Assembly: GCA_030447865.1 (NCBI GenBank)
Contig: JAUJOD010000001.1
Location: forward strand, 730,909 to 794,908
Reading direction: 5' to 3'
Source: Nocardioidaceae bacterium
GTDB lineage: Bacteria > Actinomycetota > Actinomycetes > Propionibacteriales > Nocardioidaceae
DNA length: 64,000 bases
The notes beneath the pieces are model-generated. The model ran no database searches, was not told the origin of the DNA, and was given only the letters and a program-made list of their open reading frames with translations. Both the position numbers and the translations under genes were made by a program. This document shows positions 49,365 through 61,345 of the stretch, one piece after another; the first letter of the stretch is position 1; each line of letters begins with the position of its first letter.

Positions 49365-50096
49365 TCAGCCGAGGAGCGAGCATTGGCCCCCGAGACCGGC
49401 GCCGGCTGTGTTTCCCGATCCGACTGGGGCCGGGCTGTTGGCGGAGCAGGCGAACTTGTTCGCGGCGGAGTTGCGCTTCACCACCACCTGGGATGAGTTG
49501 TTGGCGATCGTGATGCTGCCGCCTTGGGTTACGCCCACCTCGTTGTCCGTGAGGCGCGTGAAGGCGCCAGTGTTTCGCTTGACCACGAGACTGTTGCCCA
49601 CGACGTTGTCATGCACGCCGATAAGTCCCGAGTTGCCCACGAGTGTGATGTTCTCGCCGGTCGTCATCTGGCAGATGGCGATGTTGCCGAAGTTGTTGAT
49701 CAGCGTGATGTTGTTGCCGACCGCAGGGTCAACCGCACAACCGGCGGCACCGATGACGATGCGGCGAAGTGTGCCTTGCAGGTTGATGTTGCCGGTGGTA
49801 CCCGTGCCGACGACGTGGGTGTCGATCAGCTGAACCGTCCGAGCGCCGCTTCCGTTGACGTTGCCGTTGATCGTGGAGTTGTGGGAGATCAACGCGGCCC
49901 CCTCAAGGATGCGCACATTGCCGTTCACTGTGGCACCGTCCAGCGTGCAGGTCTCGCCTTCGGGCACGACGACCCGGCCGTCGATCTCGCCGGTCAACGT
50001 GGTCGTACACTCGGTCGCCGTGGCGGCGTTGGACGGAGCCTGCGCCAGGCCCACGACAGCGACGGCAGCGGCAGCGGTTGCCAAGAATTTACGCAT
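49365..50096 (-). CDS. Secreted protein with beta-helix-like repeats
   Basis: 243 residues from ATG 50096, with GAGGGG upstream. A Sec signal peptide (MRKFLATAAAAVAVVGLAQAPSNA) is followed by CTTTLTGEIDGRVVVPEGETCTLDGATVNGNVRI and a series of short strands ending in Gly-Asn: INGNVNGSG, TGNINLQG, GENITLVGNSG. The spacing suggests a right-handed parallel beta-helix. Six Cys may form disulfides. The composition suits a cell-surface or matrix protein. It sits next to the polysaccharide genes and its upstream region has BldD-like boxes. Function unknown. Confidence 0.8.
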   Translation of the reverse strand: MRKFLATAAAAVAVVGLAQAPSNAATATECTTTLTGEIDGRVVVPEGETCTLDGATVNGNVRILEGAALISHNSTINGNVNGSGARTVQLIDTHVVGTGTTGNINLQGTLRRIVIGAAGCAVDPAVGNNITLINNFGNIAICQMTTGENITLVGNSGLIGVHDNVVGNSLVVKRNTGAFTRLTDNEVGVTQGGSITIANNSSQVVVKRNSAANKFACSANSPAPVGSGNTAGAGLGGQCSLLG

Positions 50097-50180
50097 AATG
50101 CCCCTCGTTACTCTCATTACCCTCCGTAACGCTGTATGCGGATTCTGTTGCTTCAGGCGGGGAGGGTGAACCAGTTGGAT

Positions 50181-50193
50181 AACTGAGAGTAAC
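50181..50193. promoter_or_regulatory. BldD-like box (one mismatch) upstream of the secreted protein gene
   Basis: On the minus strand this region reads TTACTCTCAGTTA, differing from TNACNC(A/T)GNGTNA at the central G only. A further, poorer copy (GTTACTCTCATTAC) begins at 50107, immediately by the ribosome-binding site. Confidence 0.55.
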
Positions 50194-50230
50194 GCCAAAC
50201 ATCCCAATGGTGGAAGTGCATAAAAGCGAC

Positions 50231-50339: not shown

Positions 50340-51842
50340 TCATACGCTCTGTCGAGCACCGAGGCTGCCGTATCGAGCTGTCCGCAGCCGCCTGAGCTGC
50401 GTGTGGTCGCGCTTCCTCAGAACGGTGAGTTCCTGGCGAAGGAAATCGCCAAGCCGCTCACAAAAGGCCTGCGGTTCATCCGCCGCGTCGGGTCGCTCGG
50501 GAACGATCCGGTCAACGATGCCGGCTGCCAGCAGGTCCAGCGAACGGACGCCTTGCGACCGCGCCAGGTCGGCGGCGTAGTGAGTGGACCTGTGGATGAT
50601 CGCGCTGGCGCCCTCCGGCGGCAGCGGGGAGAGCCAGCCGTGCTGAGCGGCGATCACCCGGTCGGCCGGCAGCAGGGCCAAGGCGCCCCCGCCGGTGCCC
50701 TGGCCGAGCAGTACCGTCAGCGTCGGAGCGTCGACGCTGACCAGGTCAGCTAGGCAGCGGGCGATCTCGCCGGCTAGCCCACCCTCTTCCGCCTCCACCG
50801 AAAGCGCTGCACCGGGGGTGTCGATAACGCTAACCAGCGGCACGCCAAGGTCAGCGGCGAGCCGCATACCTCGGCGGGCCTCGCGCAGGGCGCCCGGTCC
50901 CATCGGCCGCTCCTCGGTCTGCCCCCGGCGGTCCTGGCCGAGGAAGACGCACGGAGCGCCGCCGAAGCGGGCAAGTGCTATCAACAGACCAGGGTCCGCC
51001 TCGCCTTGACCGGTGCCGTTCAGCGGCAGCACGTCGGTGGCGGCGTAGCGCAGCAGCCGACGTACGCCGGGTCGATCGGCCCGGCGCGACCGGAGAATGG
51101 ATTCCCACGCGTCGACGTCAGCGACTGTTTCGTCGGCCCGGGCCGCGACCGGCGCGTCGTCGCGATCCCGAGCGTCGAGGACTGTGAGCGCCCGGGCGAC
51201 GATCCCGGCGATCTCCTCGGGCGGCACCACCGCATCGATCAGGCCGTGCGCATGCAGGTTCTCCGACGTCTGTACGCCGGGTGGGAAAGGTCGGCCGTAC
51301 AGCGCCTCGTAGACCCGGGGACCCAGGAACCCAATGAGTGCACCTGGCTCGGCCACCGTCACGTGCCCGAGCGACCCCCAGGACGCCATCACGCCACCGG
51401 TGGTGGGGTGGCGCAGGTAGACCAGGTATGGCAGCCCGGCGGCCTTGTGCTCGGTGATCGCCGCAGAGATCGTGATCATCTGCACGAACGCGACAGTGCC
51501 CTCCTGCATGCGGGTGCCGCCGGAGACCGGAGCCGCCAGCAGCGGCAGGCGCTCGCGGGTCGCCCGCTCGACGCCGTGCACCAGTCGATCGGCGGCGTCG
51601 ACACCGATCGACCCCGCCAGAAAGCCGAACTCGCAGGCGAGCACCGCAACCCGACGGCCGTGCAGCAGCCCCTCCCCCGTGATCACCGCCTCGTCCAAGC
51701 CGGTGCGCTGGCGGGCAGCCGCCAACTCTGCGGCGTACGGCGCCGGCACGGCGCGCGGCGGCGGCGGCACGTCCCACGATGCGAACGAGCCGTCGTCGAG
51801 GACGAGGTCGATGAGCTCGGTCGCGGTGAGGCGGGTCGTCAC
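50340..51842 (-). CDS. Acyl-CoA carboxyltransferase, fused beta and alpha (AccDA-like)
   Basis: 500 residues. The N-terminal half is AccD-like (LACEFGFLAGSIGVDAADRLVHGVERA, APVSGGTRMQEGTVAFVQM) without a zinc finger, and the C-terminal half is AccA-like (PGALREARRGMRLAADLGVPLVSVIDTPGAALSVEAEEGGLAGEIARCLADLV). It transfers the carboxyl group from biotin to an acyl-CoA, probably a pathway-specific one. GTG 51842 overlaps the CoA-transferase stop by four bases. No biotin carboxylase or carrier is adjacent. Confidence 0.85.
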   Translation of the reverse strand: MTTRLTATELIDLVLDDGSFASWDVPPPPRAVPAPYAAELAAARQRTGLDEAVITGEGLLHGRRVAVLACEFGFLAGSIGVDAADRLVHGVERATRERLPLLAAPVSGGTRMQEGTVAFVQMITISAAITEHKAAGLPYLVYLRHPTTGGVMASWGSLGHVTVAEPGALIGFLGPRVYEALYGRPFPPGVQTSENLHAHGLIDAVVPPEEIAGIVARALTVLDARDRDDAPVAARADETVADVDAWESILRSRRADRPGVRRLLRYAATDVLPLNGTGQGEADPGLLIALARFGGAPCVFLGQDRRGQTEERPMGPGALREARRGMRLAADLGVPLVSVIDTPGAALSVEAEEGGLAGEIARCLADLVSVDAPTLTVLLGQGTGGGALALLPADRVIAAQHGWLSPLPPEGASAIIHRSTHYAADLARSQGVRSLDLLAAGIVDRIVPERPDAADEPQAFCERLGDFLRQELTVLRKRDHTQLRRLRTARYGSLGARQSV

Positions 51843-53017
51843 AGAGCGGCTTCCCGTTCGTCGAGCCAGGCCGACACGGACTCGTTGTGCTCTCCCAACC
51901 CAGGTGGTGGCTGGTGCTGGGCTCGCCCGCCGGCGTACGGCAGGTCATCGAACCGCAGCGGAGGGCCGGGCAGCTCGATGAGACCGGCCGACGGGTGCGC
52001 TACCGCTACGACAAGCCCTTGCGAGCGGGTCTGCTCCCAGTCGTACACGTCGTCAAGACTGCGGACCTTGCCGGCCGGAACTCCCGCTGCCGCCAGTTGG
52101 TCAAGCCAGTGCTCGGCCGGGTGCTCGGTCAGCGCGGCCTCGATCAGCTCGGTGAGCTCGTCGCGGTGAACCACCCGGAGCCTGTTCGTGGACAACTTCC
52201 CGTCGTCGGGATCGAGGCCGACAAGCGGAGCAAACGCCCGCCAGAGCCCTTCACTGCCGCACGCGACCTGCACCGGTGCTGTTGCGGTGCGGAACAGTCC
52301 GTACGGCGCGATGGACGGATGGTGGTTGCCGATCCCGGCCGGCACCTCCTTGCCGACAGTCCACCGGGTTCCCTGATAGGCGTGGGTGGCGACGATCGCC
52401 GCGAGCAGGCTGGTACGGACGAGCCTGCCCCGCCCGGTCGAGGCTCGTTCGTGCAGTGCCGCCAGCACGCCGTAGGCGGCGTACATGCCCGCCAGCAGGT
52501 CCCCCATCGGCACGCCGACCTTGGTGGGCTCGTCCGGGGACGGGCCGGTGAGGCTCATCAGGCCCGCCTCACCCTGGGCGATCTGGTCGTAGCCGGCGCG
52601 ACCACCCTCCGGGCCGTCGTGCCCGAAGCCGGTGATCGAGCAGACGACAAGCGCCGGGTTGAGCGCGTGCAATTCGTCGACAGAGAAGCCCAACCGGTCG
52701 AGCACGCCGGGGCGGAAGTTCTCCAGCAGGACGTCGGCCTGCCGCACCAACCGACGTACCAGCTCCTTCCCGGCGGGGCTCTTCAGATCCGCCGTCACCG
52801 ACTCCTTGTTGCGGTTGCAGCTGAGAAAGTACGTCGACACCTGTTCGTCGTCGGCCCCCACGAACGGCGGCCCCCAGCCGCGGCTGTCGTCTCCCGAGCC
52901 AGGCGTCTCCACCTTGATGACCCGGGCGCCGAGATCCCCGAGCATCATCGCGGCGTGCGGGCCAGCAAGGGCGCGAGTCAAGTCGATGACGACGACGTCA
53001 CTGAGCAAGGTGGTCAC
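51839..53017 (-). CDS. CaiB/BaiF family CoA-transferase
   Basis: 392 residues, class III CoA-transferase. LSDVVVIDLTRALAGPHAAMMLGDLGARVIKVETPGSGDDSR opens the protein, with the catalytic Asp expected in VGVPMGDLLAGMYAAYGVLAAL; LLENFRPGVLDRLG and CSITGFGHDGPEGGRAGYD are family motifs. It moves CoA between organic acids. It is the first gene of a two-gene operon with the carboxyltransferase, so together they may activate and carboxylate an unusual acid. Divergent from the riboswitch operon. Confidence 0.9.
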   Translation of the reverse strand: MTTLLSDVVVIDLTRALAGPHAAMMLGDLGARVIKVETPGSGDDSRGWGPPFVGADDEQVSTYFLSCNRNKESVTADLKSPAGKELVRRLVRQADVLLENFRPGVLDRLGFSVDELHALNPALVVCSITGFGHDGPEGGRAGYDQIAQGEAGLMSLTGPSPDEPTKVGVPMGDLLAGMYAAYGVLAALHERASTGRGRLVRTSLLAAIVATHAYQGTRWTVGKEVPAGIGNHHPSIAPYGLFRTATAPVQVACGSEGLWRAFAPLVGLDPDDGKLSTNRLRVVHRDELTELIEAALTEHPAEHWLDQLAAAGVPAGKVRSLDDVYDWEQTRSQGLVVAVAHPSAGLIELPGPPLRFDDLPYAGGRAQHQPPPGLGEHNESVSAWLDEREAAL

Positions 53018-53074
53018 CTGGCGACTCTACGGCTCGGCGCCTCGGCGGGGTCTGCTACATTCGCCCTGCCGCCG

Positions 53075-53283
53075 CCCACGGTGGCGACAAGTCAATACTG
53101 CTCGCCTACAGGGGAAGCCGGTCGAAATCCGGCACTGTCCCGCAGCCGTGGCCGGTCTGAAACCGGAAGTCGGAATGCCTGCAGGGGAGTGAGCGGCTCC
53201 ATATCTGTCGAGGTCTGCAGGGTCGGAGTCTGGACATCGTCCACGTGTGCCGTCGTCGGGCATCCGTTCCCGGGACCGCTCAC
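53075..53283 (+). promoter_or_regulatory. Cobalamin riboswitch with RBS-proximal platform
   Basis: The aptamer core is visible as GAAGCCGGTCGAAATCCGGC (53114 onward) and the following CTGTCCCGC segment, then a variable stem (GGCCGGTCTGAAACCGG) and the B12 box-like GTCGGAATGCCTGCAGG (to about 53185). Downstream, GTGAGCGG (53189-53196) pairs exactly with CCGCTCAC (53276-53283), and GAAAGG, the ribosome-binding site of the next gene, follows at once at 53285. A TACATT -10 is at 53056. Translation or transcription of the uptake operon should fall when adenosyl- or other cobalamin binds. Limits of the element are approximate. Confidence 0.9.
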
Positions 53284-53297
53284 CGAAAGGCACTTCG

Positions 53298-55040
53298 ATG
53301 TCCACCCGGCTTCGCCGGCTCGCCGCTGTCGCGGCCGTGTCGGTTACCACCCTTACGACGGCCGCGCCCGCCTCGGCCGTCACCCCGTTCGTGCCGGCCG
53401 CGCCCGCCTCAGCCGGCACCGCGATCCCAGTTGCACGACTCGCCAGCCCGGTCGCCTCCGCGACCCCTGACTACCAGCAGCGGGCCGCGCTCGCCGCCCG
53501 CTGGCAGGCCGGTCAGCTCACCAACGGCCGCATCTACAACAGTCAGTTCAAGTTCGACGACTGGGGCCTCACCATCGACACCGGCCTCATGCTGGCCGCA
53601 GCCGGCACCTCGCCCGCTCAGCTGGCCGCCCTCGAACAGCAGGTGCGTCGACACTTCTACACCGATTACGCGGGCGGCGGCACCGCCGCCGGCGCGCTGG
53701 CCAAGACGCTGCTGTTCGCGAGCGCGCTGGGTGCCGACGTCCGGGACTTCGGTGGTCACAACGTCCGCGCTGAGCTGCTCGAGCACGTTCAGGGAACCGA
53801 CGCCGGTCCGGAGCAAGGCCGGATCAGCGACGCGGGGAAGAAGGACTACAGCAATGTCCTGACTCAGTCGTACGGCGTTCTCGCACTGGCGCCGACGGGC
53901 GGCGTGCCGCAGCCGGTGGTGGACTACCTGCTGAGACAGCAGTGCCAGGCCGGGTACTTCCGACTTGATGAGGTAGCCGGCGAGACCTGCGAGCAGAGCG
54001 GCAGTGCCCCCGATGTCGACGCAACGGCGCTCGCTCTGCAGGCGCTGCAGTCAGCTGCTGAGCATGGCGCCGCGTTGCCCGCGGCAGCCGTCAGCAAAAC
54101 CGTGGCTTGGCTGGTTTCGCAGCAGCACAAGAGTGGCGCCTTCGGGGGTGGGAAGCTGGGCCCGAACACCAACAGCACCGGGTTGGTGGCCAACGCTCTC
54201 ACCGCAACCGGCAGCACCGAAGCTCGTCTTCGAGCCGCGAACTATGTGGCGCGGATGCAGATCACCACGGCGAACGCCGGCGGGGGTCCGGCTCGGGACG
54301 CCCTCGGCGTCATTGCCTACAACCGGGCGGCCCTTACCAGCGCGTTGACCAAGGGGATCCGGGCCGCCGAGCTCGACCAGTTCCGGCGCGCCACACCACA
54401 GGCCTACTATGCCCTCGCCCAGGCACCCTCGGCGGGCACAGCCGGACCCTGCCCGAGCGACACTGGGGTCACCGTCGTCGTTGACTTCCAGAGTCTCGGC
54501 GGAGATGTCGTCACGCGCTGTGCAGCCGCCCCGGTGACCACCGGGCTGGACGCCTTGGAGCGGGCCGGGTTCTCCTACTCCTTGGTCACGTCCAGCCTGG
54601 GGGCGCTGGTCTGTCGCATTCAGGGGGAGCCGTCAGCTGCGGACGAGGACTGCCAGGGCACACCGCCCCAGTCGGCGTACTGGAGCTACTGGAATGCAGA
54701 AGACGGTGGAAAGTGGGAGTACAGCACCAGCGGCGCGGGTAGTCGTCGGGTCACCGCGGGCGGCTTCGAGGGCTGGTCGTTCGCGGTGAACGACAAGGCT
54801 CGTCCGCCGGCCGTCGATCCCACCAGGCAGGAGCAGACGGCCACACCCTCACCCTCGCCATCGGCGACGCCGAGCACGACACCCCCTCCCGATGGCGCAC
54901 CGAGCGAGGCAGCTCCCCCCGCAGACTCGGCTGCGGAGCCGGCCGGGTCGGTCCTGCCAACGGTGATCGGACTGAGCCTGATCGGCTTGCTCGCTGCCGG
55001 CGCCGGGCTGACGGCGTGGCGACGGTCACGGCGGGCGTGA
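53298..55040 (+). CDS. Transcobalamin-like surface protein: alpha/alpha barrel plus DUF4430-like domain
   Basis: 580 residues from ATG 53298. A Sec signal (1-27) precedes helical-hairpin repeats (about 45-375; e.g. LTQSYGVLALAPTGGVPQ, DVDATALALQALQSAAEHG, NSTGLVANALTATGS) of the terpene-cyclase/prenyltransferase-like alpha6/alpha6 fold. A DUF4430-like beta domain follows (about 383-505; VTVVVDFQSLGG, SAYWSYWNAEDGGKWEYS, GFEGWSFAVND), then a Pro/Ser/Thr linker and a C-terminal transmembrane helix (VIGLSLIGLLAAGAGLTAW) with basic tail. Animal transcobalamin and intrinsic factor have this same barrel-plus-beta-domain plan. Behind a cobalamin riboswitch and before an ECF importer, it probably captures cobalamin at the surface. 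Confidence 0.8.
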   Translation: MSTRLRRLAAVAAVSVTTLTTAAPASAVTPFVPAAPASAGTAIPVARLASPVASATPDYQQRAALAARWQAGQLTNGRIYNSQFKFDDWGLTIDTGLMLAAAGTSPAQLAALEQQVRRHFYTDYAGGGTAAGALAKTLLFASALGADVRDFGGHNVRAELLEHVQGTDAGPEQGRISDAGKKDYSNVLTQSYGVLALAPTGGVPQPVVDYLLRQQCQAGYFRLDEVAGETCEQSGSAPDVDATALALQALQSAAEHGAALPAAAVSKTVAWLVSQQHKSGAFGGGKLGPNTNSTGLVANALTATGSTEARLRAANYVARMQITTANAGGGPARDALGVIAYNRAALTSALTKGIRAAELDQFRRATPQAYYALAQAPSAGTAGPCPSDTGVTVVVDFQSLGGDVVTRCAAAPVTTGLDALERAGFSYSLVTSSLGALVCRIQGEPSAADEDCQGTPPQSAYWSYWNAEDGGKWEYSTSGAGSRRVTAGGFEGWSFAVNDKARPPAVDPTRQEQTATPSPSPSATPSTTPPPDGAPSEAAPPADSAAEPAGSVLPTVIGLSLIGLLAAGAGLTAWRRSRRA

Positions 55041-56146
55041 CGCGGACGCGGCGGCAGGGTCACCTGCTGGCCCGCCCCCTGCACCCGCTCGCCTGGTGGC
55101 TGTGGGCGCTCGGGCTCGCCGTCGCGGCCAGCCGCACCACCAACCCCTTGCTGCTCGCGACAATTGTCGCCGTCGCCACCTGGGTCGTCTTCGCCCGCCG
55201 CACCGACGCTCCGTGGGCGCGCGCCTTTGCGCTCTACCTCGCTGCGGGCCTCGCCATCGTCCTCGTGCGGGTGATCTTCCGGGTCGTGTTCGCCGGAAAC
55301 CAGGGCACCGTCGTGCTGGTCCCGCTGCCGGAAGTCAGCCTCCCCGGTGCCGCCACCGGCATCGCGCTGCTCGGTGACGTGACAGCAGAATCGGTCCTTG
55401 CCGGTGTGTACGACGGCTTGCGCCTCGCGACGATGCTCATCTGCCTCGGTGCCGCGAACGCGCTGGCGAACCCCCGTCGGCTGCTGCGTTCGATGCCCGC
55501 CGCCCTGCACGAGGTCAGCACCGCGGTCGTCGTCGCATTGTCGGTGTTCCCTCAGCTCGCCGAGAGCTTCGTCCGGGTACGGCGTGCACGCCGGCTGCGG
55601 CCAGTGGCTGAGAAGGGCCGCGTCGCCGCCCTCCGGAGGATCATCGTCCCAGTGCTCGAGGACGCCCTGGACCGCTCGCTGATGCTCGCGTCGTCGATGG
55701 ACTCCCGCGGCTATGGCCGCCGCGGCAGTCGCTCGGTGGTGCTGAGCCGGCTGACAGCGGGCCTGCTGATCGCCGGGCTGGCGGGGTTGTGCATAGGGGT
55801 GTATGCGTTGCTGGACGGAACTGCCCCGCGTTACCTGGCCACCCCCATGCTGCTCGCCGGGATCGCCGTCGGCGTGGTCGGCCTCGTGGTGTCGGGCCGC
55901 AGCGTCCACCGCTCCTCCTACCGACCGGATCGGTGGCGCGCGGCGGAATGCGTCACCGCCGCCGCGGGTTTGCTGGCCGGAGTAGCGGTCTTCGCGACCG
56001 CACAGGTCGACCCGGTTGACCTCTACCCGTCGCTCACCCCACTGTCATGGCCGCAGCTGCCCTGGCTGGCGTTGCTCGGGATCGTCGTCGCGCTGCTGCC
56101 GGCGGCCACGCCAAGATCCGAGTCTGGCGTCGTGGGGACAACGTGA
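55037..56146 (+). CDS. ecfT: ECF transporter transmembrane component EcfT (CbiQ-like)
   Basis: 369 residues from GTG 55037, overlapping the previous stop by four bases. Several transmembrane helices (LHPLAWWLWALGLAVAASRT onward) surround the EcfT coupling motifs, here ESFVRVRRARRLRP and MLASSMDSRGYGRRG, the Ala-Arg-Gly-type signatures that contact the ATPases. It joins the S component to the ATPases. The C-terminus is longer than usual, with additional helices (LLAGIAVGVVGLVV and onward). It is second in the riboswitch operon. Confidence 0.9.
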   Translation: MTRTRRQGHLLARPLHPLAWWLWALGLAVAASRTTNPLLLATIVAVATWVVFARRTDAPWARAFALYLAAGLAIVLVRVIFRVVFAGNQGTVVLVPLPEVSLPGAATGIALLGDVTAESVLAGVYDGLRLATMLICLGAANALANPRRLLRSMPAALHEVSTAVVVALSVFPQLAESFVRVRRARRLRPVAEKGRVAALRRIIVPVLEDALDRSLMLASSMDSRGYGRRGSRSVVLSRLTAGLLIAGLAGLCIGVYALLDGTAPRYLATPMLLAGIAVGVVGLVVSGRSVHRSSYRPDRWRAAECVTAAAGLLAGVAVFATAQVDPVDLYPSLTPLSWPQLPWLALLGIVVALLPAATPRSESGVVGTT

Positions 56147-56201: not shown

Positions 56202-57830
56202 GTGATCGAGTTCGAGCAGTTCTCGTTCTGGTACCCCGGCGCGGCCAAGGCTGCGGTGGAGGCGGTCGACCTGCACATCCCGGAAGGGGAGCTGGCGCTT
56301 GTCGTCGGCCACACCGGCTCGGGCAAGTCGACGCTGCTGCGGGCGGTCAACGGCCTCGTCCCGCACTTCACTGGCGGCCACGTCGAGGGCCGGGTGGTCG
56401 CCGGGGGGCGCGATCCCCGCGACTCCCCACCCCGCGAGTTCGCCGACACCGTGGGTGTCGTGGGACAGGACCCGTTGGCGGGGTTTGTCACCGACACCGT
56501 CGAGGAGGAGCTGGCCTACGGCATGGAACAACTCGCCGTACCGCCGCAGGTGATGCGGCGGCGGGTGGAGGAGGTCCTCGACCTGATGGGCATCGCCCGG
56601 CTGCGGCGGCGGGCGCTGCGCACGCTGTCGGGAGGTGAGCAGCAGCGGGTCGCGCTGGGTGCGGTCCTGACCAGCTCACCTCGCATCCTGGTGCTCGACG
56701 AACCGACGTCGGCGCTGGACCCGGCGGCTGCCGAGGACGCGTTGAGCGCCGTACTGCGACTGGTGCACGACCTGGGCGCCACCGTGCTGGCGGCCGAGCA
56801 CCGGCTCGAGCGGGTGGTGGAGTACGCCGACCGGCTGGTCGTCGTGCACGAGCAGCGGGTGCGCGACGGGAAGCCGGCCGAACTGTTGCGCGACGCCCCG
56901 CTGGCACCGCCGGTCGTCGAGCTCGGGCGGCTGGCGGGGTGGGACCCGCTGCCGCTCTCGGTGCGCGACGCCCGCCGGGCCGCGGGTGCCTTGCGCAGCA
57001 GCCTGACCGGCGTGCCGGCGCGGGTTGCGCCGGTGGTGCCCGGCGACGCCAGGGACGGGCTGCTGGCCCGGCGTGTGGTGGTGGCCTACGGCGACGCGGT
57101 GGCCGTGCGCGACGTGGACTTCACGGCGGCTCCAGGAGAGGTAGTCGCGCTGATGGGGCGCAACGGCTCGGGCAAGTCGTCGCTGCTGTGGGCGCTGCAG
57201 GGGTCGCTGCGGCGCAGCGCCGGGTCGGTGTCAGTGGCTGGACAAGACCCGGCAGCCGCGTCGCGCGCAACGGCAGCGGCGCTGGTAGCCCTGGTGCCGC
57301 AGCAGGCGACCGACCTGCTGTACTGCGACTCGGTGGCGGCAGAGTGCACGGCAGCCGACCAGGGGGCCGGAGCGGTACGGGGGGCGACTCGATCCGTGTT
57401 CGGTGAGCTCGTCGGGGGAGCTGGCATCGACGACGCCACCCATCCACGCGACCTCTCCGATGGGCAGCGGCTGGCGCTCGCGTTGGCCGTGCAGCTGTCC
57501 GGAAGACCGCGAGTGTTGCTGCTCGATGAGCCAACCCGCGGGCTCGACTACACCGCCAAAGCCCGACTCGCTGGGCAGTTGGCGGACCTCGCCGCCGACG
57601 GGATGGCCGTTGTCGTGGCCACCCACGACGTGGAGTTCGTGGCGCACACCGCCTCCCGCGTGGTCGTACTCGCCGAGGGTGAGGTGGTCACGGCGGCCCC
57701 GACACAGGAGGCGCTGGCGGGGTCGCCGGTCTTCGCGCCCCAGGTCGCCAAGGTGCTGGCGCCGTTGCCCTGGCTCACCGTCGACCAGGTCGCCGCCGCG
57801 CTCACCGCAAGGAGCGTGGCGCATGGCTGA
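56202..57830 (+). CDS. ecfA: Fused ECF ATPase (EcfA-EcfA')
   Basis: 542 residues from GTG 56202, two ABC ATPase domains in one chain. Domain 1 has GHTGSGKST (about 36), LSGGEQQRVALG and LVLDEPTSALD. Domain 2 (from about 285) has GRNGSGKSS, LSDGQRLALALA and LLLDEPTRGLD. They power the transporter by ATP hydrolysis. Fusion of the two EcfA subunits is common in actinobacterial ECF transporters. The 55 bases before it are the largest gap in the operon. Its end overlaps the S-component start by eight bases. Confidence 0.92.
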   Translation: MIEFEQFSFWYPGAAKAAVEAVDLHIPEGELALVVGHTGSGKSTLLRAVNGLVPHFTGGHVEGRVVAGGRDPRDSPPREFADTVGVVGQDPLAGFVTDTVEEELAYGMEQLAVPPQVMRRRVEEVLDLMGIARLRRRALRTLSGGEQQRVALGAVLTSSPRILVLDEPTSALDPAAAEDALSAVLRLVHDLGATVLAAEHRLERVVEYADRLVVVHEQRVRDGKPAELLRDAPLAPPVVELGRLAGWDPLPLSVRDARRAAGALRSSLTGVPARVAPVVPGDARDGLLARRVVVAYGDAVAVRDVDFTAAPGEVVALMGRNGSGKSSLLWALQGSLRRSAGSVSVAGQDPAAASRATAAALVALVPQQATDLLYCDSVAAECTAADQGAGAVRGATRSVFGELVGGAGIDDATHPRDLSDGQRLALALAVQLSGRPRVLLLDEPTRGLDYTAKARLAGQLADLAADGMAVVVATHDVEFVAHTASRVVVLAEGEVVTAAPTQEALAGSPVFAPQVAKVLAPLPWLTVDQVAAALTARSVAHG

Positions 57831-58662
57831 CCACTCCTCCGGCGTGGCGGTAGCCCCAGGCGCCGCTCCCTCGTCGGCGTCGACGGCCGCGGTACCGGTC
57901 GGCGTACGGACGGCGTCGGCGCTGCTGCTGGCCTCGCTCACGGGGATCGTCATGTTCTGCTCGCCGCTGTTCGTCCGGGTGCCGGCCAGCTCGGTCGGCC
58001 ACACCAGCGACGCGCCGCTGCTGTTCGTCGTGGTGCTGCCGTTGGTCGTGGCGATCGTCCTCGCGTCGTTCGCGGACGGTGGAATGGACTCCAAGGCGCT
58101 GGCCATGTTGGGTGTGCTCTCGGCCGTGAACGCCGCACTGCGCCCGCTGGGGGCTGGGATTGCCGGCGTCGAGCTGGTGTTCTTCCTCCTGGTGCTTGCC
58201 GGGCGGGTGTTCGGCGCAGGCTTCGGCTTTGTCCTGGGGTGCACATCGATGTTCGCCTCCGGCTTGCTCACGGCTGGGGTAGGGCCGTGGCTGCCGTTCC
58301 AGATGCTTGCCGCGGCGTGGATCGGCCTTGGTGCGGGGTTGTTGCCGCGGCGCATGAGCGGCCGGGCAGAGATCGCCATGCTCGTGGCGTACGGCGTCGT
58401 CGCGGCGTACCTGTACGGCTTCTTGATGAACTTGTGGTTCTGGCCCTTCGCGCTCGGCGGCGGCACCGACCTGTCGTTCGTGCCGGGTGACCCGCTGCTC
58501 GACAACCTGCACCGCTTCGTCGTCTACACGGTCACCACGTCGACGCTCGGGTGGGACACCGGCCGGGCCATCACCAACGCCGTCGCCATCGTCGTACTCG
58601 GGCCAGCGGTGCTGGCGACCCTGCGCCGGGCGTCCCGCCGCGCCTCCTTCGGCGCGGGTTAA
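57823..58662 (+). CDS. ECF transporter S component, predicted cobalamin-specific
   Basis: 279 residues from ATG 57823 with AAGGAG eight bases upstream. About eight hydrophobic segments, including FVLGCTSMFASGLLTAGVGPWLPFQMLAAAWIGLGAGLLPRRMSG, match S components, which scoop the vitamin through the membrane. Substrate specificity lies in this subunit. The riboswitch and the transcobalamin-like first gene make cobalamin (or a corrinoid precursor) the likely substrate, as for CbrT-type transporters; the sequence itself does not prove it. Confidence 0.85.
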   Translation: MADHSSGVAVAPGAAPSSASTAAVPVGVRTASALLLASLTGIVMFCSPLFVRVPASSVGHTSDAPLLFVVVLPLVVAIVLASFADGGMDSKALAMLGVLSAVNAALRPLGAGIAGVELVFFLLVLAGRVFGAGFGFVLGCTSMFASGLLTAGVGPWLPFQMLAAAWIGLGAGLLPRRMSGRAEIAMLVAYGVVAAYLYGFLMNLWFWPFALGGGTDLSFVPGDPLLDNLHRFVVYTVTTSTLGWDTGRAITNAVAIVVLGPAVLATLRRASRRASFGAG

Positions 58663-58681: not shown

Positions 58682-59107
58682 TCAGTCGGGGTCGACGATC
58701 GCGCCACCGACCGTGCGGCTGCGGCCGCGGAACTCCGCCACCACCCGGCCCTCGCACGTCACCTGCACGTCGTAGATGCCGTTGCGGCCGAACCGGTGCC
58801 GCTCGGCGGCTGCAGCGACCAGCCGGTCACCGTCGACGACGGGTGTCACGAACACGATGTCGCACGCCTGCGCGACCGAGCGTTCGTTATAGGAGTTGCA
58901 CGCGAACGCGAACGCCGAGTCGGCCAGCGCGAAGACGAACCCGCCGTGCGCGGTGCCGTGTCCGTTCGTCATGTCCCCACGCACTGTCATCGCCACCGTC
59001 GCACGACCGGGGGCGACATCCCTCAACTGCATGCCGAGCTCGCGAGACGCCGCGTCGTCGGCCCACATGGTCTCGGCGCAGCGACGGGCCAGCTCGTCGG
59101 CGTTCAC
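58682..59107 (-). CDS. paaI: PaaI-like hotdog-fold thioesterase
   Basis: 141 residues, hotdog fold. The PaaI signature NGHGTAHGGFVFALADSAFAFACNS contains the catalytic Asp and the substrate-positioning Asn/Gly, followed by PVVDGDRLVAAAAERHRFGRNGIYDVQV. It hydrolyses acyl-CoA, in the phenylacetate pathway hydroxyphenylacetyl-CoA, removing dead-end esters. It sits near a paaN gene on the opposite strand, and overlaps the GNAT gene by four bases. Confidence 0.85.
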   Translation of the reverse strand: MNADELARRCAETMWADDAASRELGMQLRDVAPGRATVAMTVRGDMTNGHGTAHGGFVFALADSAFAFACNSYNERSVAQACDIVFVTPVVDGDRLVAAAAERHRFGRNGIYDVQVTCEGRVVAEFRGRSRTVGGAIVDPD

Positions 59108-59665: not shown

Positions 59666-61345
59666 ATGTCGCTTGCCGATGACTTCTTCGCCCGTCACCG
59701 CTCGATGCTCGACGACGCTGTCGCGGCCACCCGGTCTCGGGAGTACTACAGCGCGTTCCCCGAGTCACCGAGCCCACGCGTGTACGGCGAGTCGGCGGCC
59801 GCCGACGGCAAGGCTGCCTTCGAAGCGTTGCTGGGCCAGGAGTTCCCGCTCAGGACTCCGGGCGCCGAGGGCACCGTGGCGACCGAGAAGTCGCCGTACG
59901 GGTTGGCCTTGGAGGTCCGTTACCCGCGGGTGACGCCGGACGGCGTGCCCGCGCTGGTGGAGGCCGCTCGCGCCGGCCTGGCCGACTGGCGCGACGCCGG
60001 CGTCGAAGCGCGGGTGGGGATCGGGCTGGAGGTGCTGCACCGGCTGCATCAGCGGGTCTTCGAGCTGGCCAGCGCGGTCATGCACACCTCGGGCCAGGCG
60101 TTCGTGATGGCGTTCCAGGCCGGCGGGGCGCACGCGCTCGATCGGGCGCTCGAGGCGACCGCCTACGCGTACGCCGAGATGGCGCGGGTGCCGGCTACCG
60201 CGATCTGGGAGAAGCCGGGCCGCGACGCACCGGTGCGGATGGAGAAGACGTTCACCGTCGTGCCGCGCGGGGTCGCGCTGTCGATCGCCTGCAACACGTT
60301 CCCGACGTGGAACACCTGGCCGGGTGTCTTCGCTTCGCTCGTCACCGGCAACCCGGTGGTCGTCAAGCCGCACCCGGGTGCGGTGCTGCCGCTGGCGATC
60401 ACCGTGCAGGTGTGCCAGGAGGTGCTCGCCGAGGCCGGGTTCGACCCCAACCTGGTCACGCTCGCCGCGGAGGACCCGGCCGACGGAATCGCCGCGGTGC
60501 TGGCGGTGCACCCGAAGGTCAAGTTGGTTGACTACACCGGCTCTGCCGCCTTCGGGGAGTGGTTGGAGGAGCACGCGCGGCAGGCAGTGGTGTTCACCGA
60601 GAAGGCGGGCGTCAACACCGTCGTCGTCGACTCCACCGACTCGTTCAAGGGAATGTGCTTCAACCTCGCGTTCTCGCTCGCGCTGTACACCGGGCAGATG
60701 TGCACCGCTCCGCAGAACATCTGCGTGCCCGCCGACGGCATTGACACCGACGAGGGGCACAAGAGCGTCGACGACGTGGTCGCTGGGCTGGCCAAGGCGT
60801 TTGACAAGCTGGTTGGCGATGACGCCCGCGCGGTCGAGCTGCTCGGTGGGGTGGTGAACCCCGGTGTGCTCGAGCGGCTGTCGGCCGTGGAGTCCGCAGC
60901 TGGCTCGGTGGTCATCGAGTCGCGCGAGGTGTCCCACCCGGCGTACGCCGACGCGGTGGTGCGGACCCCGACGGTTGCCGTTGTCGACGCTAGCGACTCA
61001 TCGACGTACGAGAACGAGTGGTTCGGGCCGGTGAGCTACCTCATCAAGACCGGCTCGACGCAGGAGTCGATCGAGGTTTTTCGGCGTACCGCGCTCGAGC
61101 GGGGCGCGATGACCGCCTCGGTCTACAGCACCGACCCTTCCGTGGTGGAGGCGATGCGCTCGGCCGCCCTGGACGCCGGTGTTGCGCTCAGCGAGAACCT
61201 TACCGGGCAGGTGTTCGTCAACCAGTCTGCGGCGTTCAGCGACTTCCACGGGACGGGGGCCAACCCGGCTGCCAACTCGACGTACACCGACGGCGCTTAC
61301 GTCGCCAGCCGCTTCCGCTTCGTCCAGTCCCGCCGCCACATCTAA
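59666..61345 (+). CDS. paaN: PaaN/phenylacetate degradation aldehyde dehydrogenase
   Basis: 559 residues, aldehyde dehydrogenase superfamily. Family features include RMEKTFTVVPRGVALSIACNTFPTWNTWPG, VKPHPGAVLPLAITVQV, the Glu in VVFTEKAGVN and the catalytic Cys in YTGQMCTAPQNI. Unlike PaaZ it has no C-terminal hydratase domain, so it matches the PaaN type; its exact step in phenylacetyl-CoA catabolism is less settled. No paaABCDE genes are within the window. Start ATG 59666. Three palindromic repeats begin 12 bases after its stop. Confidence 0.88.
   Translation: MSLADDFFARHRSMLDDAVAATRSREYYSAFPESPSPRVYGESAAADGKAAFEALLGQEFPLRTPGAEGTVATEKSPYGLALEVRYPRVTPDGVPALVEAARAGLADWRDAGVEARVGIGLEVLHRLHQRVFELASAVMHTSGQAFVMAFQAGGAHALDRALEATAYAYAEMARVPATAIWEKPGRDAPVRMEKTFTVVPRGVALSIACNTFPTWNTWPGVFASLVTGNPVVVKPHPGAVLPLAITVQVCQEVLAEAGFDPNLVTLAAEDPADGIAAVLAVHPKVKLVDYTGSAAFGEWLEEHARQAVVFTEKAGVNTVVVDSTDSFKGMCFNLAFSLALYTGQMCTAPQNICVPADGIDTDEGHKSVDDVVAGLAKAFDKLVGDDARAVELLGGVVNPGVLERLSAVESAAGSVVIESREVSHPAYADAVVRTPTVAVVDASDSSTYENEWFGPVSYLIKTGSTQESIEVFRRTALERGAMTASVYSTDPSVVEAMRSAALDAGVALSENLTGQVFVNQSAAFSDFHGTGANPAANSTYTDGAYVASRFRFVQSRRHI

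Follow-up and report, generated by a model that had tools for sequence, protein, structure and literature searches.

A cobalamin riboswitch operon encoding an ECF importer and a putative transcobalamin-type capture protein in a Nocardioidaceae bacterium

Operon, riboswitch and B12 need of the genome

The window, the whole 64,000-nucleotide stretch of a Nocardioidaceae genome analyzed here, carries a cobalamin riboswitch upstream of an open reading frame (ORF) at 53298-55040, which is followed by genes for an EcfT coupling protein, a double EcfA ATPase and an S component, all closely spaced or overlapping. The ORF is genuine, starts with ATG 98 nt downstream of the riboswitch, and encodes 580 aa. 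The features of the locus are listed below.

53062-53200, + strand: cobalamin riboswitch aptamer, RF00174 (41.6 bits, gathering threshold 31.5, E 4.2e-7)
53298-53378, + strand: N-terminal signal peptide MSTRLRRLAAVAAVSVTTLTTAAPASA, read by eye (basic start, hydrophobic stretch, AxA-type end)
53430-54422, + strand: domain 1 (residues 45-375), an alpha/alpha toroid in which Cys216 and Cys231 are conserved (AF2 model, profile and fold)
54444-54812, + strand: domain 2 (residues 383-505), a DUF4430-like beta-grasp of transcobalamin type (Foldseek, hhalign and conservation)
54813-54947, + strand: Pro/Ser/Thr/Ala-rich linker, residues 506-550 (composition; pLDDT <50)
54948-55037, + strand: transmembrane anchor at the C terminus, ending in the basic tail RRSRRA (hydropathy; C-terminal helix in the model)
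55016-56146, + strand: EcfT, a CbiQ-like transmembrane coupling protein (PF02361, 2e-10, above cut-off)
56202-57830, + strand: EcfA-EcfA', a single chain made up of two ABC ATPases (two PF00005 domains)
57823-58662, + strand: ECF S component, CbrT-like, of cobalamin type (bridged profile to 6FNP CbrT, 4.8e-12)

The riboswitch is the only RF00174 match in the whole genome, which is 97.8% complete, and the ECF parts are all present at the locus, namely EcfT, EcfA, EcfA' and an S component. ECF ATPase models score highest on the double ATPase chain, yet below their own equivalog cut-offs. The S component was assigned with a profile to which bridging relatives from other parts of the phylum had been added. 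This profile reaches 6FNP, the structure of CbrT, a proven vitamin B12 S component that takes up cobinamide as well (PMC5997447), at E 4.8e-12, and its next natural transporter is a folate S component at an E of only 7. With a profile from close relatives alone the CbrT link is gone and there is no match; the relation to CbrT is transitive, passing through bridging homologues.

Several other genes surround the operon. Divergent from the riboswitch, a CaiB-type CoA transferase gene (51839-53017) adjoins a minus-strand gene (50340-51842) that joins AccD-like and AccA-like carboxyltransferase halves in a single chain. Further out, a minus-strand ORF of 280 aa (49365-50207) looks secreted, has repeated N-rich motifs and matches no NCBIfam model. 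Phenylacetate degradation genes come after the operon, PaaI at 58682-59107 (- strand) and PaaN at 59666-61345 (+ strand).

Among the B12-related genes of the genome are those for a methylmalonyl-CoA mutase C-terminal domain, lysine 5,6-aminomutase beta, a PduO-type adenosyltransferase and, scoring over its cut-off, the adenosylcobalamin-dependent ribonucleotide reductase NrdJ. CbiC and CobS, each sought as a single marker in the 97.8% complete genome, were not found, and B12 auxotrophy is the simplest reading of this gene content. The strongest evidence for a B12 role comes from the riboswitch, the ECF genes and the apparent auxotrophy, none of which formed part of the original prediction for this locus. 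The genome also encodes a further possible corrinoid binder, a TroA/BtuF-like protein (L193). The NrdJ gene (L195:1501-4527; G000:C6:216185-219145) contains an in-frame intein-like insert that begins with CVVGETLLTTADGLIRIGSL and ends with HAFVGNGLVNHN before T.

An operon of this kind could instead transport cobalt or a corrinoid precursor, with the 580-aa protein capturing that compound and not complete B12. The CbiQ family, to which EcfT belongs, is named for cobalt transport, which is also among the functions under cobalamin riboswitch control (PMC3766115), and CbrT takes cobinamide too (PMC5997447). However, the S component links to CbrT, and a CbiM-like match sought with its profile was not found. 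Moreover, since CbiC and CobS are missing, neither cobalt nor cobinamide could be converted to B12 by the usual route. We consider transport of cobalt or a precursor very unlikely, and continue with B12 as the putative substrate of the importer.

Fold and sequence relations of the two-domain protein

The original prediction held that helical repeats and a DUF4430-like domain follow each other in the 580-aa protein in the order used by animal cobalamin carriers. An AF2 model was computed from a 58-row alignment of the window protein and the relatives' own proteins. It has a mean pLDDT of 80.5, with both domains mostly above 90 per residue, and places helices at 59-374 and strands at 383-500, in agreement with the predicted boundaries of 45-375 and 383-505. 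Residues 1-40, including the signal peptide region, and residues 504-571 are of low confidence, and a helix is modeled at 568-579, at the C-terminal end.

Comparison of the full model with the PDB by Foldseek places transcobalamin chains at the top, with intrinsic factor among those that follow. These alignments cover 471-493 columns, spanning both domains, and bear out the toroid followed by a DUF4430-type beta-grasp in animal-carrier order. Squalene-hopene cyclases are intermixed from rank 6 on. For domain 2 alone, the best 14 matches are all transcobalamin or intrinsic factor chains at a probability of 0.99-1.00 (E 0.003-0.06), among them 5np4 and 5no0, which are isolated beta domains. They are followed by 3u7z, a bacterial DUF4430 protein, after which the probability falls to 0.15; among the 50 best matches, nothing beyond the carriers and 3u7z exceeds 0.21. 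In its domain pose the ligand-free model departs from the B12-bound carriers, with an rmsd of ~18 A and a TM score of ~0.4 over both domains. Within domain 2, the model has a helix at 416-422 and then short strands at 427-429 and 438-441. In the transcobalamin-like SLBB clade, a beta-hairpin insert after the helix contacts cobalamin.

Sequence comparison gives a fainter signal. A plain HMM scan of the window protein against Pfam finds only weak TED, squalene-cyclase and prenyltransferase matches. For PF01122 (Cobalamin_bind), domain 1 of the window stays under the cut-off (0.029, 13.8 bits vs 25), and 5 of 26 relatives match weakly, the best at 9.4e-4. PF14478 has no plain match in the window protein and matches domain 2 in 2 of 36 members (best 0.016). 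Profile-profile alignment by hhalign, on the other hand, relates domain 2 to a profile of bacterial PF14478 members with 86.7% probability and an E of 4e-6. The proposed Pfam assignment thus stands for domain 2 at the profile-profile level, but not at the level of plain HMM cut-offs for either PF01122 or PF14478. The profile of bacterial PF14478 members in turn reaches bacterial 3u7z (E 0.014) and, weakly, haptocorrin (transcobalamin-1, 4kki; E 0.15), whereas the domain 2 and full-length profiles of the window family do not reach transcobalamin among PDB sequences. The outcome named beforehand as speaking against the idea, generic prenyltransferase repeats together with a C-terminal domain that aligns to no DUF4430 member, differs from what hhalign and the fold comparison give. 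Both the profile-profile and the fold route support a real transcobalamin likeness, and plain HMM scans (Pfam, NCBIfam and PDB sequences) taken alone would have led to its wrong rejection.

The toroid itself has wider relations. The best matches of the domain 1 profile are squalene-hopene cyclases (2e-23), with complement TED domains found as well, so that domain 1 might be a terpene cyclase or a TED-like thioester domain that resembles transcobalamin only through a shared toroid. As a class II terpene cyclase it lacks the DXDD motif, having DVDA at 239-242, and as a complement thioester domain it lacks CGEQ; both candidates were rejected. A cyclase or TED domain is also at odds with a B12 riboswitch upstream of the gene and with a protein that is apparently exported and joined to a transcobalamin-type beta domain, making this the most improbable of the readings considered. 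We therefore treat domain 1 as the toroid of a probable transcobalamin-type protein.

The remaining parts of the chain fit a tethered protein. Export is apparent from the signal read by eye together with the C-terminal hydrophobic segment. In the tail, residues 548-574 are the only hydropathy segment above threshold and are directly followed by RRSRRA, and an LPxTG motif searched for in the tail is absent, in line with the predicted anchoring by a transmembrane helix and not by LPxTG. The long Pro/Ser/Thr spacer expected before the anchor is evident in the composition of residues 506-565, where 60 aa include 13 Pro, 8 Ser, 7 Thr and 9 Ala, and the linker at 506-550 is probably disordered. Domain 1 contributes two cysteines and domain 2 another four (Cys385, 408, 439 and 452), and all six of the protein are kept across the family; their spacings would suit disulfides in an exported protein.

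Recurrence in relatives and proposed function

Among 59 genomes searched, the window's own included, the two domains are present in 26. By positions read by hand, the domains are closely preceded by a cobalamin riboswitch in 24 of these, 17 of them clearly over the gathering threshold and 7 at or just under it (27.1-31.5 bits). In the other two, the locus is at a contig edge (G014) or none is shown (G018). EcfT, EcfA and S genes follow the domains in most of the 26 genomes. A scan of named genomes, with the closer alignment set as query, identified 74 loci spread over several actinobacterial families, with hosts that include Nocardioides, Amycolatopsis, Actinomadura, Micromonospora, Kribbella, Flexivirga and Streptomyces. 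Most of these loci have T, A and S genes alongside, and a riboswitch is directly upstream in 6 of 12 named loci sampled, most of them from other families. Elsewhere in the phylum, PF14478 genes likewise adjoin ECF A and S genes. At three such loci (L110, L111 and L112), a giant DUF4430-repeat protein of 1500-1850 aa directly precedes ECF genes and a DUF4430 protein of small size, the latter being its immediate neighbor.

The arrangement of the domains varies. In relatives, domains 1 and 2 are mostly separate genes, sometimes duplicated, and 2-1 and 2-1-2 fusions occur at times; the animal-like 1-2 fusion was seen in the window's genus and a few others, with all fusion counts approximate because ORFs were called mechanically. 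Since the domains are usually separate genes in relatives, the single 1-2 chain of this genus seems to have arisen by local fusion, not by inheritance of an animal-like chain. Chains of 2-1-2 type and doubled copies of domain 1 or 2 occur at L037, L033, L038, L122, L126 and other loci, with two or three copies kept in some relatives, and the shuffled or multiplied domain loci are mostly near the same ECF genes.

We propose, with considerable confidence, that the locus is a riboswitch-controlled B12 uptake operon in which an exported, tethered two-domain protein binds cobalamin and feeds the ECF importer. At low intracellular B12, the riboswitch would permit expression of the operon, and plentiful B12 would shut it off. 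Outside the membrane, the toroid and beta-grasp together would bind cobalamin or related corrinoids in the manner of transcobalamin, with B12 held between the two domains, and the captured vitamin would then be passed to the CbrT-like S component of the operon's own EcfT/EcfAA' module. Points that speak against this proposal are the low identity to the animal carriers, the scores of the window protein below the PF01122, PF14478, NF053823 and NF040672 cut-offs, the deviating domain pose, on which a model lacking the ligand is not decisive, and the TroA/BtuF-like protein as a second candidate corrinoid binder.

ECF importers are generally regarded as a class that needs no binding protein of its own. 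Normally the S component alone captures the substrate, so a two-domain capture protein could be dispensable. Thus, the operon might import B12 with capture by the S component, while the two-domain protein binds another ligand, such as glycans or a B12-binding partner protein, or only assists the transporter at the cell surface. That the S component suffices in ECF importers is exemplified by CbrT (PMC5997447), and domains of the SLBB superfamily have varied ligands (PMC1796856). However, the first matches of the full model are B12 carriers over both domains, domain 2 alone matches only B12 carriers and one DUF4430 protein, and the domains are still under B12 riboswitch control in distant relatives. 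A role other than capture is thus unlikely, if less so than cobalt transport, and a membrane-tethered B12 capture protein that feeds the ECF importer is the most likely function suggested by the modeled fold and the operon.

More broadly, and with less assurance, we favor the view that many actinobacteria possess an ECF importer with a dedicated extracellular capture protein of transcobalamin type, which passes B12 on to the S component and whose halves can work either separately or as one chain. This would provide a likely B12 function for two widespread actinobacterial families, SCO2321 and SCO2322. Moreover, the naturally fused ectodomain offers a test object for bacterial B12 binding and ECF feeding that also bears on the origin of the animal carriers.

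Comparison with known systems

The NCBIfam families SCO2321 (NF053823) and SCO2322 (NF040672) represent these two domains when encoded by neighboring, unfused genes, and the loci that score over the SCO2321 cut-off (L102 and L103) have split domain genes with the same ECF genes. The window protein differs in being fused and in scoring below the cut-offs, with 62 of 300 bits for NF053823 and 29 of 85 bits for NF040672. NCBI names these families "SCO2321 family membrane protein" and "SCO2322 family protein" with no B12 function stated, and in the open-access literature an experimental B12 role for these families was not found.

In its S component family and its EcfT and EcfA modules, the operon resembles the ECF-CbrT importer, from which it differs by a dedicated module of its own, a double EcfA chain and the added extracellular two-domain protein (PMC5997447).

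Animal transcobalamin, intrinsic factor and haptocorrin share with the window protein the toroid followed by a beta domain in one chain, and they are its best fold matches. Unlike them, the window protein, with ~15% identity to the animal carriers, is membrane-tethered and is encoded next to an ECF importer, whereas they serve a receptor. Shared ancestry with the animal carriers, raised in the original prediction beside convergence, accords with a published proposal (PMC1796856), but the window family is not the best candidate for it, since its domain-2 profile misses transcobalamin whereas the curated DUF4430 profile reaches 4kki. The window family is a divergent actinobacterial branch, and the animal carriers apparently have closer relatives than it; nothing in these results singles it out as their source, and by sequence the curated DUF4430 set is nearer.

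The closest published precedent is the transcobalamin-like SLBB clade defined by Burroughs et al. 2007, which was placed in low-GC Gram-positives, planctomycetes and some archaea. Its bacterial members include proteins fused to an alpha/alpha toroid at one end or the other, lie in operons with CbiO/CbiQ and belong to hosts usually without B12 synthesis; B12 scavenging was inferred, and animals were proposed to have acquired the protein from low-GC Gram-positives (PMC1796856). Like those proteins, the window protein combines an apparently exported toroid with a beta-grasp, CbiO/CbiQ-like operon genes and a host that seems to lack B12 synthesis. Unlike the members surveyed there, the window family is actinobacterial and too divergent for PF14478, and the riboswitch and the CbrT-like S component are additions here; riboswitch and auxotrophy evidence lacking for this lineage in the 2007 proposal is now supplied. 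The ancestry idea is thus already published, and what is new is the divergent branch, the riboswitch, the CbrT-like S component, and the split and fused forms.
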